From a virus, in the IMG/VR virus record IMGVR_UViG_3300035698_011312, positions 1 to 52,161 of that record: 52,161 bases of DNA; one strand, 5' to 3'. Below the pieces are notes generated by a model. It was given only the letters and a program-made list of their open reading frames with translations. It did no database searches and was not told where the DNA came from. Below, one piece after another: positions 5,459-46,083 of this stretch (the stretch's first letter is position 1; the number at the start of each line of letters is the position of its first letter). The position numbers and the translations under genes are program-made.

Positions 5459-6107
5459 CGTACCAGGAGAGCTGTATTTATATGAAGAGGATTTTATAAG
5501 AAAAAATCCTTTGTTTGTGGAAGCTGGATCATTCTCAGGCAATACTACCTTACACCTAAAGAGTACGTATCCAGACTCAAAAGTTATTGTACTTGAGCCT
5601 AGTGATAACAATTACAAGCTCCTATTAAAAAATCTTAAGGACTATAGGGGGAGGAGAGATGTCATCTTTATGAAGAAGGCTTTGTTAGATCATGATGATG
5701 ATATAGACTTCTATGAGTTTGATACAAAATCATCTAACAGTATGTTTGCTAGGCAGTCTGAAAGAAAAAAGATTGTAAAAAAAATAACAGTGCCAGCTAT
5801 TGATATACTAGAATTAATAGAGCATATACGAATGGTAGAGTATTTGGATTTACCTATAGATATTTTGTTCTTAAATTGTGAAGGTTCAGAGAACATAATA
5901 TTAGAAAGGTTATTTAGCCAAGAGTATGCTATAAAGGGTATAAGGCAGATATGTGTTTCCTTTCATGATAATAAAATAAAACAAGATACCTCAGTGGATA
6001 AGTTGCTGATAGAAGCAGAGAAGCATTATATTATAGAGAAGCATCCACCATTAAAGTACAATCATTATTTATTCATTAATAGGGATATTATAAATGGTAA
6101 AAAATGA
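5448..6107 (+). CDS. FkbM-type SAM-dependent methyltransferase
   Basis: Residues 24-34 (VEAGSFSGNTT) are the SAM-binding motif I, 48-55 (VLEPSDNN) gives the acidic residue that binds the SAM ribose, and FLNCEGSENIIL corresponds to the FkbM family block KIDVEGAE. FkbM enzymes usually O-methylate sugars or polyketides. Length (219 aa) fits the family. The ATG is inside the GSCFA gene and the end overlaps the next gene by 14 bases, so expression is coupled. Likely substrate is the same glycan handled by neighbouring enzymes. Confidence 0.75.
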   Translation: MRVDVPGELYLYEEDFIRKNPLFVEAGSFSGNTTLHLKSTYPDSKVIVLEPSDNNYKLLLKNLKDYRGRRDVIFMKKALLDHDDDIDFYEFDTKSSNSMFARQSERKKIVKKITVPAIDILELIEHIRMVEYLDLPIDILFLNCEGSENIILERLFSQEYAIKGIRQICVSFHDNKIKQDTSVDKLLIEAEKHYIIEKHPPLKYNHYLFINRDIINGKK

Positions 6108-10344: not shown

Positions 10345-10534
10345 CAAAGAACTAATGGAAGCAGTAAGTGTAACTGTTCAGGATGAGAGTGGTAGGGAAG
10401 TAACAGGGAAAGTAGAGAAGGTGATGGGAAATGATATAATTATCAAAGCCAATACTGGTCAAGGTTATGAAAGTCAAACCTTAAAGAATGTATCAGTAAA
10501 GGACATAAACAAGATGGAAAAGTTTCAGAAATAA
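10334..10534 (+). CDS. Hypothetical small beta-rich protein (66 aa)
   Basis: ATG at 10334 after AGGAGG (10319-10324). Alternating hydrophobic residues (VSVTVQDESG, KVEKVMGNDIIIKA) suggest a small beta-barrel. There is no cysteine, membrane helix or known motif. It overlaps the previous gene by 11 bases and precedes the Lys/Glu-rich membrane protein. Function unknown. Confidence 0.5.
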   Translation: MENDKELMEAVSVTVQDESGREVTGKVEKVMGNDIIIKANTGQGYESQTLKNVSVKDINKMEKFQK

Positions 10535-35056: not shown

Positions 35057-35071
35057 GGTATATTATAGATA
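35057..35071 (+). promoter_or_regulatory. Candidate phage promoter element GGTATATTATAGATA (second identical copy)
   Basis: It is identical to 139-153 and lies in the 82-base gap after the fibre gene, opening the replication block. Upstream is a 6-base hairpin ATAAAC/GTTTAT (35033-35048), and TTAATTAA occurs on both sides (35017-35024 and 35081-35088). No strong terminator for the tail transcript is seen here. Confidence 0.5.
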
Positions 35072-35102: not shown

Positions 35103-35381
35103 ATGAAAGAGATAGTAGCAGAAACAAATGAAGAGAGAATGGTTCTTGTACTTTGTATGTCTAGTCCTCGTGGTAATGATTCTGCCAGAATCAGGAGAAT
35201 TGAAAAGATAGCAATTATCATTGAAGCTAGTAGAGGAGTGGTAAAACTGGATGATGATGATTTTGATTTTGTTTTAAAAAGCTTCCAAGCCTACAATAAA
35301 TGGGGTGGTGAAGTACGCTCTGTCAGGAAAGCAGTCATTTCTATAGAAGACAGATTGGATGAAGCCAAAAAAGCTGTATAA
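35103..35381 (+). CDS. Hypothetical helical protein (92 aa)
   Basis: ATG behind AAGGAGG. It is acidic with a helical pattern (DDDDFDFVLKSFQAY). There is no cysteine, membrane helix or known motif. It is alone between two TATATTA elements, so it may be an early protein or regulator. Function unknown. Confidence 0.55.
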   Translation: MKEIVAETNEERMVLVLCMSSPRGNDSARIRRIEKIAIIIEASRGVVKLDDDDFDFVLKSFQAYNKWGGEVRSVRKAVISIEDRLDEAKKAV

Positions 35382-35392
35382 AAATAAATTTC

Positions 35393-35455
35393 CCGTGCTC
35401 CCCTGTTCTAGGTATATTACTTATAGAAAGTAATTTATACCAAAGGGGAGCATGG
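35393..35455 (+). promoter_or_regulatory. SD- and start-codon-masking hairpin that contains a TATATTA element
   Basis: CCGTGCTCCCCT (35393-35404) pairs with AGGGGAGCATGG (35444-35455), one G-T wobble, covering the SD and the ATG at 35452. An inner stem pairs GGTATA (35411-35416) with TATACC (35436-35441) and TTACTT (35417-35422) with AAGTAA (35428-35433). GGTATATTA is in the left inner arm, so RNA starting just after it would lack the left arm and have a free SD. Confidence 0.72.
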
Positions 35456-37164
35456 TAAATTTAAGGCTAATAAATAAAAAGATTTTTGGAGTCAAAGTAA
35501 AGGACTCTGGAAGCAAAAATCAATTCATAAGTTTATTAAGACTTCTTAGAGATGTTTCTATGAAGTCTTATGTTTCAGAGAGGAAGGAATGGGAGATACC
35601 TCTCAATTGTTTCTATGAACTTATAAATTCCAAACAGCTCCAACAAGAGGAAATAAGAACACCTATCGAGTTGGAACTAGCCATCCAAGAACATTTAGCC
35701 AGACTTGAGTTTCTTGAAAAATTAAAGTATATAGATTTACCCATTTTTACTTTAAAAAATTTTAAAGGTAGATTAAAGACCTTTCAACAGAATGGAGCTT
35801 TATTTACTTATTTTGGAAAAAGAGTACTCATAGCTGATTCAGTTGGACTAGGGAAAACTGTCCAAAGTATAGCTGGATCAACTTTAATGGAGGTAGATAA
35901 TATCATAGCAGTAGTACCAGCAAATTTAAGAAAGAAATGGAAAAAGGAAGTGAAGAAATTTACTCCTTATAAAAAGATAATAATGAATCAGCCTAAACAA
36001 AGAAGGCTTGAGATTTACGCCAACCCTGATAAATACTTCTGTTACCTTTTAAGTTATGAGATAATGAGAACAGATGCTGATGATATCCTCAACAACTTTA
36101 GGGGTAGGAGTGTTCTATTAATAGGGGATGAAATACAATATGTAAAAAATAAAAGTTCAGGCAGAACTAAAGCATTAAGGAAACTTGTAAAAAATAATGA
36201 TTACTTTATAGGCTTGTCTGCTACCTATGTTGAGACAGGGCTTAATGATCTGTTTGGAGTTTTTATTATAGTAGACAATACTGTTTTTGGTGAGAATGAG
36301 AATCATTTCGAGAAAAGATATGTTATAGTAGATTGGATGGGAAAGGTATCAGGTTATAAAAGGCTAGATGAAATAAGAAGGAAAATAAAACCAGTAGTTA
36401 TCAGGAGAAGGAAAGAGGATGTCAAGGAACAACTACCTAAAAAGATAACTGTAGATTATTGGGTAGATTTATCACCAGCAGAAAGAAAAGTATACAAGGA
36501 AGTAGAGAGTGGTGTCTTAGATGATGTAGCTGATTTAGAGCGTGCGAACAAGGTGACTATGGCTAGTTTACTTAACCTTTCAGGATACTTACAGCAAGCT
36601 GTGTTACACCCCAGCTTAGTGGGGTTACATGGGACTTCGAGTAAGTTACGGGAGCTAGTACCTATAATCGAAGGAATCGATGACAGTAAGATTGTAGTGT
36701 TCTGTTATTATACCAAGATGGTTGAGTTAATTAATGAGGAACTAAACAATAATGATATCAAGTCTTTATACATTCATGGCAAGACTAGAGATGATCCCTG
36801 GGATGTTATCAGAAAGTTTGGTAGAAAAAATTACAGAGTTTTAGTAACCTCAGACAAATTGAGGGAAGGACATGATATATTGTGTGCGAGTACAATCATT
36901 AATTTTGACTTACTTTGGAATCCTCAAAAAATGAAACAAAGAGCAGGCAGATTAGATCGAATGAATCAATTAGCTAAATGGATAACTGTTATAAATATGA
37001 TGGCTAGGAACACTGTAGAAGTAGACAAATATCATAGAGTAAAAGATAGAAAAAATTTGTTCACTGATGTAGTAGATGATGGGAAAGAATCTAAACGAGA
37101 TAAGGTATCAACATTAACATTGCCAAATCTGATGAATGTCCTTAAAAAAAGGAGGTATAACTAA
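35452..37164 (+). CDS. SNF2/DEAD-like superfamily 2 helicase
   Basis: Residues near 127-136 (DSVGLGKTVQ) are Walker A, GDEIQ near 226-230 is the DExQ motif, GLSATY near 255 is motif III, IRRRKEDV near 322-329 is typical of SNF2 proteins, and QRAGRLDRMNQ near 496 is motif VI. The 570-residue length fits phage SNF2 helicases, which remodel DNA at replication or repair forks. Its SD is in the hairpin described at 35393-35455, so translation of read-through RNA should be low. Confidence 0.9.
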   Translation: MVNLRLINKKIFGVKVKDSGSKNQFISLLRLLRDVSMKSYVSERKEWEIPLNCFYELINSKQLQQEEIRTPIELELAIQEHLARLEFLEKLKYIDLPIFTLKNFKGRLKTFQQNGALFTYFGKRVLIADSVGLGKTVQSIAGSTLMEVDNIIAVVPANLRKKWKKEVKKFTPYKKIIMNQPKQRRLEIYANPDKYFCYLLSYEIMRTDADDILNNFRGRSVLLIGDEIQYVKNKSSGRTKALRKLVKNNDYFIGLSATYVETGLNDLFGVFIIVDNTVFGENENHFEKRYVIVDWMGKVSGYKRLDEIRRKIKPVVIRRRKEDVKEQLPKKITVDYWVDLSPAERKVYKEVESGVLDDVADLERANKVTMASLLNLSGYLQQAVLHPSLVGLHGTSSKLRELVPIIEGIDDSKIVVFCYYTKMVELINEELNNNDIKSLYIHGKTRDDPWDVIRKFGRKNYRVLVTSDKLREGHDILCASTIINFDLLWNPQKMKQRAGRLDRMNQLAKWITVINMMARNTVEVDKYHRVKDRKNLFTDVVDDGKESKRDKVSTLTLPNLMNVLKKRRYN

Positions 37165-37203: not shown

Positions 37204-37260
37204 ATTTTTTAATTCTACTTCGTAGAATTAAAAAATATAAGATCAGCAAGCTGATCTTAT
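37204..37260 (+). repeat. Two perfect hairpins back-to-back in a 192-base gap
   Basis: ATTTTTTAATTCTAC (37204-37218) pairs with GTAGAATTAAAAAAT (37222-37236) over 15 bases, and ATAAGATCAGC (37237-37247) pairs with GCTGATCTTAT (37250-37260) over 11 bases. The T-run is in the 5' arm and the A-run in the 3' arm, opposite to an intrinsic terminator. The rest of the gap has an isolated TTGACA (37286-37291) without a good -10. An origin or structured RNA is possible. Confidence 0.65.
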
Positions 37261-37356
37261 AGTCTAAATAAAAAAAGAGTTACACTTGACATGTTTTTTT
37301 AACTAAAAGGCATTTTACTTTACTGACCTCAAAACATCAGAAAAAGATTGATTGTT

Positions 37357-41137: not shown

Positions 41138-41170
41138 TCTCCTTTTATATTATAGAAACGCAAAAGGAGA
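41138..41170 (+). promoter_or_regulatory. TATATTATAGA element with SD-masking inverted repeat
   Basis: TCTCCTTTT (41138-41146) is complementary to AAAAGGAGA (41162-41170), the SD of the gene at 41175. TATATTATAGA (41146-41156) begins on the last base of the left arm. RNA initiated after it would have an exposed SD in a very short leader; RNA from upstream would be masked. Confidence 0.6.
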
Positions 41171-41174
41171 AGGG

Positions 41175-41549
41175 GTGACCAGGAAAATAAAAAAGGCCAA
41201 AAGGACAAGGGTAAGAAAACTAAAGGATTATATAGAAGGTGAAAAAAGAAAGATCATTGAAGCCAGAAACAGAGAGTTACTTATCCTGGAACTATATTCC
41301 GGTAGTAAAAAGGAAACCTTTATACTTCCCCTTGATTCTGGGAGTGAATGTCCACTTTGGGACAGAAAGACCCTCATTTGCTATGGATGCAAAATTCCTT
41401 GCTACAAGACGAGTGGATTGGAATTCAAAAAACCTGACAGTAAATGTTGGATCAGAGACTTAATGTATCAAGATTGGTTGGTGACTAACAATATGTTGGA
41501 AGGTAAATATAAAAAAGGAAAAATAAAAAAGAAGGAAATTCTGGTCTGA
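41175..41549 (+). CDS. Hypothetical cysteine-containing protein (124 aa), GTG start
   Basis: GTG at 41175 is five bases after AAAGGAG. The N-terminus is basic; residues 74-110 carry five cysteines (SECPLW, ICYGCKIPCYK, SKCW) that could form a zinc or iron-sulfur site. I do not recognise the family. It is the first gene after a TATATTA element and precedes the HTH and sigma-like genes. Confidence 0.5.
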   Translation: MTRKIKKAKRTRVRKLKDYIEGEKRKIIEARNRELLILELYSGSKKETFILPLDSGSECPLWDRKTLICYGCKIPCYKTSGLEFKKPDSKCWIRDLMYQDWLVTNNMLEGKYKKGKIKKKEILV

Positions 41550-43352: not shown

Positions 43353-43382
43353 AAAATAGTTATCCTTTGTAATCTGGTTTCT

Positions 43383-43391
43383 AGTATATTA
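43383..43391 (+). promoter_or_regulatory. AGTATATTA element directly upstream of a terminator stem
   Basis: The element ends where the 5' arm of the terminator begins (43391). A start site a few bases on would lie inside that arm, so new transcripts would lack the complete stem and pass. Read-through transcripts would be stopped. Confidence 0.5.
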
Positions 43392-43424
43392 AAGGTAGGG
43401 AGTAAAAAGCTCCCTACCTTTTTT
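43391..43424 (+). terminator. Intrinsic terminator after the SAP/lysine-rich gene
   Basis: AAAGGTAGGGAG (43391-43402) pairs over 12 bases with CTCCCTACCTTT (43410-43421), loop of seven, with six T (43419-43424). Position is right after the gene ending at 43352. Confidence 0.9.
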
Positions 43425-43440
43425 ACATATAGGAGGCTGG

Positions 43441-44418
43441 ATGGATGCGAAAAGGAGAGTAACACATATTGGTGATCCCTCACCAGAAAAGGGGAAGGAA
43501 CTAGCAGCAGCAAATAAAGCTCCTCTTGGTGCTCCAAAGATAATTATTCTTGGAGTTGGAAAGATGGGGCTTTTGATGAATGCCATACTCAGGCTGAGAG
43601 GGTATGAGCCAATAATGATAGATATGAATAAGCCAGTATTTGAAAGAAAGGACTATCCATATTATCCATTTTTCTTTCACAAGCAAGTAATTCCATTCAC
43701 TACTGACAAGAAGATCCATTTAGTGAAGACTATCATAGGTGGTGGAGATTATGATAAAAATTATTCTTTAAAGGTATATGGAATAATAAGTGATAAGGTA
43801 AAGATATCAAGTATAAGTCCAGTTAAGGTACAAGAGACTTGGGAGCTTAATACAGATTTGATACAGTCTTCATTTAAACCTGAGTTATTTATGAATGATA
43901 AGTTAGATGTATCAAAGTTCATTGATGAAGGAAAAATGTATTGGAATGATTGTGATGAATTTGTTAAGAATGATGCTTTTGATTATTTATTTTCAACTAT
44001 TCCTTTATTCTCTTATGTTGGTAGGGAGGGCAATTTTTTCCCTTATAGGGATGTGTATATCAAGAGAACAAAAACAGATGTGTTATATACTGAACCTAAT
44101 GTAGTCAAGATAGACTATGTAACAGATTTGCATGATCCAGTCTATAGGAGGACTTATTACAAGGACACTATGCTAGAGGAGTCAACAGCTCCTATATTTG
44201 ATCGAAGGGTGTTTGCTAAGTCTTATGATTGTAGGGGTGATGGTGAGTTAAGGAAAGGGGTATTGGCTGCCTTACAAGCAAAGAAGGTGTATTGCTTTGG
44301 AAGGTTTGCTACATGGAGACCTAATGTTTTTCTCCATCAAGAGATAACAAGGTTTATAAGATTTGTTGATAAGCACTTACCATTAGCTGTAGGAGGTTCA
44401 CATGTCAGTTCCTGGTAG
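43441..44418 (+). CDS. Rossmann-fold FAD/NAD-binding protein, UDP-galactopyranose-mutase-like ends
   Basis: GVGKMG (38-43) is a GxGxxG dinucleotide loop, followed by an acidic residue at the end of strand 2 (MIDMN, D61). Near the C-terminus VYCFGRFATWRPNVFLHQEITR (split around 283-302) resembles the FAD-binding end of UGM-like and amine-oxidase-like proteins. The middle is divergent. It is 325 residues long and precedes a nucleotide-modification-associated domain and ThyX, so a nucleotide or sugar oxidoreduction role is possible. SD is AGGAGG. Confidence 0.55.
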   Translation: MDAKRRVTHIGDPSPEKGKELAAANKAPLGAPKIIILGVGKMGLLMNAILRLRGYEPIMIDMNKPVFERKDYPYYPFFFHKQVIPFTTDKKIHLVKTIIGGGDYDKNYSLKVYGIISDKVKISSISPVKVQETWELNTDLIQSSFKPELFMNDKLDVSKFIDEGKMYWNDCDEFVKNDAFDYLFSTIPLFSYVGREGNFFPYRDVYIKRTKTDVLYTEPNVVKIDYVTDLHDPVYRRTYYKDTMLEESTAPIFDRRVFAKSYDCRGDGELRKGVLAALQAKKVYCFGRFATWRPNVFLHQEITRFIRFVDKHLPLAVGGSHVSSW

Positions 44419-45391
44419 GATGTTGAAGGCTATAGAACTATTTAAGGCAAAGAATAAGGACAGGGGTGATAGTTATAGAAAGGCAGGTGATATATTTTCT
44501 AAGTTTTGCCCTGATGGAATTACAATCAAAACTAAAGAGGACTTTAATGTTTTCTTTACTATCACCCAGCTTATAGATTGCTTGACTAGAATTATAACCT
44601 TGTTTGCTAAAGGTGATGATGCTAACTTTGAAAGTATATTTGATAGTGCTAGAGATTGTGGAGTATATTCCTTTATACTGGCTGAGTTATTAGAGGAATG
44701 GGAAAATATGAAGTTTGTTAATAAAAAGAGTTTTGAGGATAGTATGGAGCGAGTGACTGAAGTTGTTGCCGAGACAAGTAAAAAAAGCAGTGAAGTTCTT
44801 GGAGACCTTGGAGAGAAATTAAGGGAATCAGCAGAAAATACACCAGATAGTGTTGTTGGTAGTTTGGGGCCTGAGATGAGTAAAGCAGGATCAGAACTTA
44901 GAAAGATAATAAAAAGATTGGCTGAAGAAAATTTCAGCAAGAGCATTATTGAAAAGTTGAGAGAATTGGCTGAGGATGAAGAGGATGAAATACAGTTAGC
45001 AATAGATAGGCTTAAGAGTTTCCAGGAATTTAAGAAGTTAGGATTTCATGAAATTGATACATCTGATGAATATCAGAAGTTTATGGGGGATTCAGATTTT
45101 ATAGTTATTAGCCATTATGGTAGTTTGATGCTTGATGTAGCTGTTAGGGGTGAAATTGGATGGCATACAAAAATTGAGAAAAGGATAATATTGAAAGTTG
45201 ATGCAGCAGATTCAATTGAGGAGTATAGAAAAGGTAAAACAGCAATAGTAAGGGCACATATTCTTGAGGAGCATAAACAGGATAGAGATTTTATTGGTTT
45301 GAAAGATTATCCTATTTCCTTTAAAAAACCATTTGATAGGGAGAGGGGGTTCAACACAAGATTAGGCTTAAGGATAATAGAGGGACTATGA
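44402..45391 (+). CDS. Protein with N-terminal nucleotide-modification-associated (DUF1599/Nmad1-like) domain
   Basis: Residues about 10-105 follow the Nmad1/DUF1599 pattern: KNKDRGDSY, then IDCLTRIITL and NFESIFDSARDCGVYSF, i.e. K...GDSY, helix with D-x-x-x-RI, and E-S-x-x-D-x-x-D. These helical domains are related to MazG-like NTP pyrophosphatases and occur near base-modification genes in phages. Residues about 115-205 are coiled coil; the C-terminal 100 residues are unassigned. SD is AGGAGG; it overlaps the upstream gene by 17 bases. Confidence 0.55.
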   Translation: MSVPGRMLKAIELFKAKNKDRGDSYRKAGDIFSKFCPDGITIKTKEDFNVFFTITQLIDCLTRIITLFAKGDDANFESIFDSARDCGVYSFILAELLEEWENMKFVNKKSFEDSMERVTEVVAETSKKSSEVLGDLGEKLRESAENTPDSVVGSLGPEMSKAGSELRKIIKRLAEENFSKSIIEKLRELAEDEEDEIQLAIDRLKSFQEFKKLGFHEIDTSDEYQKFMGDSDFIVISHYGSLMLDVAVRGEIGWHTKIEKRIILKVDAADSIEEYRKGKTAIVRAHILEEHKQDRDFIGLKDYPISFKKPFDRERGFNTRLGLRIIEGL

Positions 45392-46083
45392 AAAGAACAG
45401 ATGGCAATATATATTATGTTTATGCTTTATGTGATGATAAGGGTAAACCATTTTATATAGGCAAAGGTAAGGGTAGAAGGGCATATGTACATTTTACTCC
45501 TAAGTACATAGAGACTTCTCCAAATAAGCACAAGAATAGAAAGATAAGTAAAATAAGAAGATTGACTGGAAAAGATCCAACAGTAGAAATTTTATTTGAT
45601 GAGTTGTATGAAGGTGATGCCCATTCTATGGAAGTTCAATTAATTTATGATATAGGGTTAGAGAATTTGACTAATTTAACTGAAGGTGGTGAATCTGTTT
45701 CAGGATGGAGTCAATCGCAAAAGGTAAGAGATAGGATGAGAGAATACAGTAAAACAAATATAGGGGAAAATCATTATTTGTATGGTAAGAAATTGAAAGA
45801 ATTATATCCCCAAATAAGTAAGGCTGTAACAGAAAGCAATAAAAGTAGGACAGGTACAAGACATTCTTCATATGGCAAGATTAAGTATTTTTTTATTTCA
45901 CCAACGGGTGTTGGATATAATGATATACTTAATCTGAAAGGATTTTGTAAAAAACATAAATTAAATTTTGGTAGAGTGCTTGGGGTAGTTAGAGGCATAA
46001 GGGATGCTTATAAAAGCAAATATCATAGAAATAGAAAATTACTTTATGGTAATTGGAATATGAGAAGGGAGCTGTTGAAATGA
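45388..46083 (+). CDS. GIY-YIG homing endonuclease with NUMOD-type DNA-binding modules
   Basis: YYVYAL (9-14) and FYIGKGKGRR (22-31) are the GIY-YIG core, with an N-E-type catalytic region following. Residues about 108-160 hold two NUMOD3-like repeats (SQKVRDRMREYSK...GENHYLYGKK; SNKSRTGTRHSSYGK), and about 172-208 an IENR1/NUMOD1-like motif (SPTGVGYNDILNLKGFCKKHKL). Such free-standing genes spread by cutting cognate sites lacking the insert. It is wedged between two coupled genes, with its first codons similar to those of the polymerase gene. Confidence 0.88.
   Translation: MKRTDGNIYYVYALCDDKGKPFYIGKGKGRRAYVHFTPKYIETSPNKHKNRKISKIRRLTGKDPTVEILFDELYEGDAHSMEVQLIYDIGLENLTNLTEGGESVSGWSQSQKVRDRMREYSKTNIGENHYLYGKKLKELYPQISKAVTESNKSRTGTRHSSYGKIKYFFISPTGVGYNDILNLKGFCKKHKLNFGRVLGVVRGIRDAYKSKYHRNRKLLYGNWNMRRELLK

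Follow-up and report, generated by a model that had tools for sequence, protein, structure and literature searches.

The window analysed here is the whole 52,161-base record of an uncultivated bacterial virus, and its main genes are all located on the + strand. The structural genes extend to about 35 kb and are followed by the replication-half genes, which encode an SNF2 helicase, a DnaB-like helicase, a primase, a sigma region 2 protein, a DNA polymerase III alpha-like protein (assigned from the sequence of the protein and its tblastn matches) and ThyX. The gene of the SNF2/DEAD-type helicase (570 aa) lies at positions 35452–37164 of the + strand, and the helicase unit ends with two terminator-like hairpins 3' of the gene (37204–37261). 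Since several homologues align with the helicase from residue 1 and have their own ATG and SD, the ATG at 35452 is probably the true start of the gene. Upstream of it lies an ORF of 92 aa (35103–35381), the stop codon of which is situated 3 nt before a large hairpin. This ORF is itself preceded by the promoter-like sequence GGTATATTATAGATA (35057–35071), and transcripts from this site would include the helicase hairpin. A GIY-YIG/NUMOD3 homing-endonuclease-like gene was also noted at 45388–46083, directly preceding the polymerase gene.

The helicase hairpin was the first entry in the inverted-repeat listing for the window. The RNA of positions 35380–35470 folded with a minimum free energy (MFE) of −36.4 kcal/mol and a z-score of −7.3; the centroid structure agreed with the MFE structure, and none of the 200 shuffled sequences reached the observed stability. 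The outer stem consists of 12 bp formed between 35393–35404 and 35444–35455 and covers AGGGGAG together with the helicase ATG (35452–35454), which is correct to the base, in sequence and in fold, as stated in the original prediction. Missing from that prediction was a 7-bp A/U extension below the outer stem (35385–35391 paired with 35457–35463), which continues into the first codons past the ATG. The complete left arm, anti-SD and anti-start, is therefore composed of the extension and the 12-bp arm (35385–35404), while the opposite side (35442–35463) carries the SD AAAGGGGAG (35442–35450), the ATG and both right-hand segments. The inner stem also has 12 bp, in which 35411–35422 pairs with 35428–35433 and 35436–35441, leaving a UU bulge at 35434–35435 of the right arm (35428–35441). 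As had been proposed, a promoter-like element is found in the left part of this stem: GGTATATTA (35411–35419) starts the inner stem and includes the −10-like hexamer TATATT (35413–35418). A transcript initiated 7 nt past the hexamer would begin at about 35425, in the hairpin loop (35423–35427).

To express the masking of translation starts as a number, we calculated for the 52 gene starts of the window how much energy it takes to open the SD together with the start codon. The helicase start was the most occluded of them (27.4 kcal/mol, rank 1 of 52), with a cost twice that of the second-ranked gene 43441 (13.8 kcal/mol). When only the upstream sequence was shuffled, the mean cost was 8.9 kcal/mol and 0 of 300 shuffles matched the helicase value. 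In the RNA cut to the predicted start at 35425, the same SD and start codon opened at 3.7 kcal/mol. Folding with and without the left arm agreed with the earlier expectation that the start is inaccessible in RNA reading through from upstream but accessible in RNA begun at the element. A T4-type promoter-bypassed leader is recognized in part by a stable helix that sequesters the SD and start of the read-through RNA, and such a helix is predicted here as well. The masking of the helicase start is well supported by these calculations, and it is very likely functional.

Two other identities of the hairpin were considered and rejected. It does not read as an intrinsic terminator, as its right arm is followed by TAAATTTAAGG with no U run and it was absent from the terminator scan. 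No covariance model of a known Rfam RNA family matched it above the gathering score.

The element resembles a promoter-like motif that recurs between genes of the window. GGTATATTA is present four times in the window against 0.71 expected, and three times on the intergenic + strand against 0.04 expected. Elements resembling TATATTATAG are repeated upstream of genes in the window. For GTATATTA, five occurrences were counted on the intergenic + strand, with 0.13 expected from dinucleotide shuffles and none of the 1000 shuffles reaching five; none was found on the intergenic − strand. Words similar to TATATTATAGA stand upstream of genes at 139, 35057, 41144, 43383 and 49880, and one more at 6025 is located within a gene, shortly before the next gene. 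The 35411 element has GGTATATTA in common with the two best sites, but it is devoid of a −35 and of the TAGA tail after TATATT, and it ranked only 101 in the window when scored with a matrix trained on the five other sites. Its match to the motif is partial, and it is placed so that RNA from the predicted start opens the SD. As for other promoter signals, the TATATT sites as a group showed no −35 box above background, and in the interval from the 92-aa ORF to the helicase gene the matches listed included no sigma-70-like promoter of the + strand. We consider the role of the 35411 element as a promoter plausible, weaker than the case for masking. Elements of this kind could form a −10-only promoter class, for which the candidate reader is the sigma-like protein of the phage (41818–42444, + strand), in which only Sigma70 region 2 was detected.

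Similar nesting was seen at two more genes of the same phage. At the first of them, TCTCCTTTT (41138–41146) pairs with AAAAGGAGA (41162–41170), the SD of the GTG start at 41175, and TATATTATAGAAA (41146–41158) lies between them, so that the last base of the anti-SD arm is the first base of TATATT. Gene 41175 is the first gene of the operon containing the sigma-like gene; its opening cost (rank 6 of 52) fell from 8.7 to 2.1 kcal/mol on truncation at the predicted start of about 41158. At the second, ATCTGGTTTCT (43372–43382) pairs with the SD/start region (43432–43442) of gene 43441, and TATATT (43385–43390) is between the arms, the anti-SD arm ending 2 nt 5' of it. Here, truncation at the predicted start of about 43397 decreased the cost (rank 2 of 52) from 13.8 to 4.7 kcal/mol. 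Because upstream shuffles reached the full value in 18 of 300 cases for gene 41175 and in 10 of 300 for gene 43441, the nested masking at these genes, as predicted by folding, is suggestive, not compelling. The promoter-like sites before genes 171, 6094, 35103 and 49933 were accompanied by no comparable masking.

A terminator-like hairpin (43391–43421) separates the −10 hexamer from the SD of gene 43441, and the predicted start of the promoter transcript would be within its left arm. This hairpin could stop the read-through RNA and partly spare the RNA of the promoter. In the gap before gene 579, a perfect 15-bp inverted repeat surrounds a second internal stem (471–545); together with its flanks, it folded at −43 kcal/mol (z −3.2), with the SD outside the main stem.

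The in silico results to be explained are that the start is masked, that truncation relieves the masking and that the motif recurs. As the best explanation, which we consider fairly probable, we propose that the point of transcript initiation sets a cis-acting translation switch and that the masking is relieved by a promoter inside the hairpin. RNA coming from upstream, either from the promoter at 35057 or by read-through from the structural genes, would fold into the 35385–35463 hairpin, which would hide the SD and ATG of the helicase gene and leave the gene almost untranslated. RNA begun at the GGTATATTA element, with the predicted start at about 35425, would be without the left arm, leaving the SD open for translation. 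The same switch is apparently used at genes 41175 and 43441. That the 35411 element is active as a promoter, when it would act during infection, and that it would be read by the phage sigma factor are matters that we infer.

This switch has two main rivals, relief through RNase III and a brake bound by protein, each of which we regard as unlikely. In phage lambda, a hairpin near the start site of the N gene limits translation and processing by RNase III gives relief. The helicase hairpin would share the first of these properties, while relief by RNase III is the point of difference. If the long duplex were cleaved by RNase III here too, GGTATATTA would be incidental to the inner stem; the near-continuous duplex of ~24 bp around an internal loop is a plausible substrate for such cleavage. 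However, the chance occurrence of GGTATATTA in intergenic DNA is improbable, given the excess reported above, and genes 41175 and 43441 have different arms, yet TATATT again overlaps the end of the anti-SD arm or follows closely 3' of it.

The hairpin might instead be a standing brake or the site of a regulatory protein, for example in the autoregulation of a replication protein, as with T4 gp43 and gp32; in that case, the promoter-like match would be due to chance. The helicase gene does belong to the replication half, replication proteins of T4 use such structures for the repression of their own mRNAs (PMC3014915), and the poor score of the 35411 element on the full motif fits this reading as well. 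Still, a masking of 27 kcal/mol would allow almost no translation, which is hard to square with an intact gene of 570 aa unless the left arm is removed.

Less probable again is regulation at the level of transcription, in which the inner palindrome would be a DNA operator over the promoter −10 and the RNA hairpin would be secondary. The dyad of the inner stem, GGTATATTACTT..AAGTAATTTATACC, indeed spans the −10-like element, but no enrichment of the half-site AAGTAATWTATA was seen across the window (41 occurrences with up to 2 mismatches against 36 expected), and an operator gives no account of a 12-bp outer stem positioned exactly over the SD and ATG. Opening of the hairpin by translation of the 92-aa ORF or by heat, as in an RNA thermometer, is very improbable: the stop codon of the ORF does lie only 3 nt from the hairpin, but a ribosome covering the RNA up to 35393–35396 still leaves 15–20 kcal/mol to open the SD, and heating to 60 °C leaves a cost of 18 kcal/mol.

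The start-site switch has precedents in T4. On their long transcripts, the SDs of e, soc, 49 and I-TevI are masked by RNA structure. In e and the genes related to it, the DNA that encodes the 5' strand of the masking hairpin also holds the late promoter, and the late RNA is thus without that strand (PMC3014915). The same arrangement, an RBS-masking hairpin with a late promoter inside or beside it, was described for I-TevII, I-TevIII, segB and Aeh1 mobE, and the genes with that arrangement are all late according to the authors (PMC2988022). When the same opening-cost measure was applied to a 30-kb part of T4, the starts of e (15.3 kcal/mol), 49 (14.7 kcal/mol) and I-TevII (13.5 kcal/mol) took the third to fifth places. 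The T4 sequence TATAAATA is found at −21 in e and at −26 in I-TevII, and the anatomy of both leaders, folded here, matches that of the helicase leader.

The likeness to the e, soc and 49 leaders lies in the sequestration of the SD and start, in T4 on a long early RNA, and in the position of the promoter, a putative one in the present phage, within the 5' strand of the hairpin. In T4, however, this promoter is the late promoter TATAAATA and the genes are unrelated late genes, whereas here TATATTA precedes a replication-type helicase and the hairpin is much stronger (27 versus 15 kcal/mol). As the helicase element is GGTATATTA and not TATAAATA, it would work like the T4 late promoter class and is not a member of it. 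The leaders of I-TevI, I-TevII, I-TevIII, segB and Aeh1 mobE likewise have a promoter inside or beside an RBS-masking hairpin, but they guard mobile nuclease genes on early or middle transcripts, in contrast to an SNF2 helicase downstream of structural genes. Thus, where the original prediction spoke of a repeated nested-promoter form that may be new, the repetition holds with moderate support at genes 41175 and 43441; the novelty does not, since T4 e, soc, I-TevI/II/III, segB and Aeh1 mobE already use it (PMC3014915, PMC2988022). The nested form is already known; the present case stands apart by the phage and the genes in which it occurs, by its promoter word and by how strong its hairpin is.

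We tentatively propose, without giving it even chances, that the start-site switch of T4 has also evolved in this phage, for which no relationship to T4 is detectable, and that it relies on a −10-only promoter class, and perhaps a sigma-like reader, of the phage's own. It would act at three replication-half units, where it would insulate genes from upstream read-through rather than delay late genes. If this is right, an unrelated phage shields other genes from read-through transcription in the way that T4 does. Such insulation would then be a general design, and it could be looked for in sequences by comparing the fold of each start in the presence and in the absence of the promoter-proximal arm.

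Relatives of the phage and other examples of the nesting were searched for in sequence collections. No close relatives were present in the collections searched, where the best matches of the helicase had 28–31% identity. The polymerase likewise had no near relative (about 28% identity in IMG/VR and 34% in the phage collection), and neither the DnaB-like protein nor the terminase gave a match, the terminase scan covering bacterial genomes. Among distant SNF2 genes, four annotated phage homologues need 3–7 kcal/mol to open the start, and of 65 distant phage homologues from the SNF2 scan, with starts assigned automatically, two reach 12 kcal/mol and none 20. Since these distant helicase genes are without comparable masking, the hairpin, as judged from their sequences, is not a property of the SNF2 gene family.

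The exact nested pattern had no match in the sequences searched. A scan of viral contigs for CTCCTT..TATATTATAG..AAGGAG returned 47 loci, mostly divergent gene pairs, which confound the scan because their two SDs are complementary by nature. With the divergent pairs set aside, the same-strand families (L008, L016, L018 and L030) were about as many as the distinct loci of the control (L055–L057); this is not clearly above the control, and no enrichment is claimed. At 2172–2210 of L016, another viral contig, an 18-bp hairpin CTCCTTTTTGGTTATAT..ATATAACCAAAAAGGAG surrounds TATATTATAG and is followed only by a short ORF. Same-strand nesting of an anti-SD arm, TATATTATAG and the SD AAAAGGAG was seen at 360–394 of the − strand of L018 (also in L027, L031 and L049) and at 574–607 of L008 (also in L011 and L019), upstream of ORFs of 66 aa and 185 aa, respectively. 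The locus at 10375–10425 of L009 and about 30 similar loci up to L053 represent a divergent gene pair common to many prophage-like contigs, with CTGCTTATATTATAGCAG, a −10-like palindrome, between the two SDs. The outer arms of the helicase hairpin matched one locus in the viral contigs, which is unrelated and GC-rich and yielded no relative of the phage (L006, 3860–3940). It contains the hairpin GGTGCTCCCCC..GGGGGAGCAT (−43.8 kcal/mol), which adjoins an opposite-strand ORF resembling, by eye only, an endonuclease.
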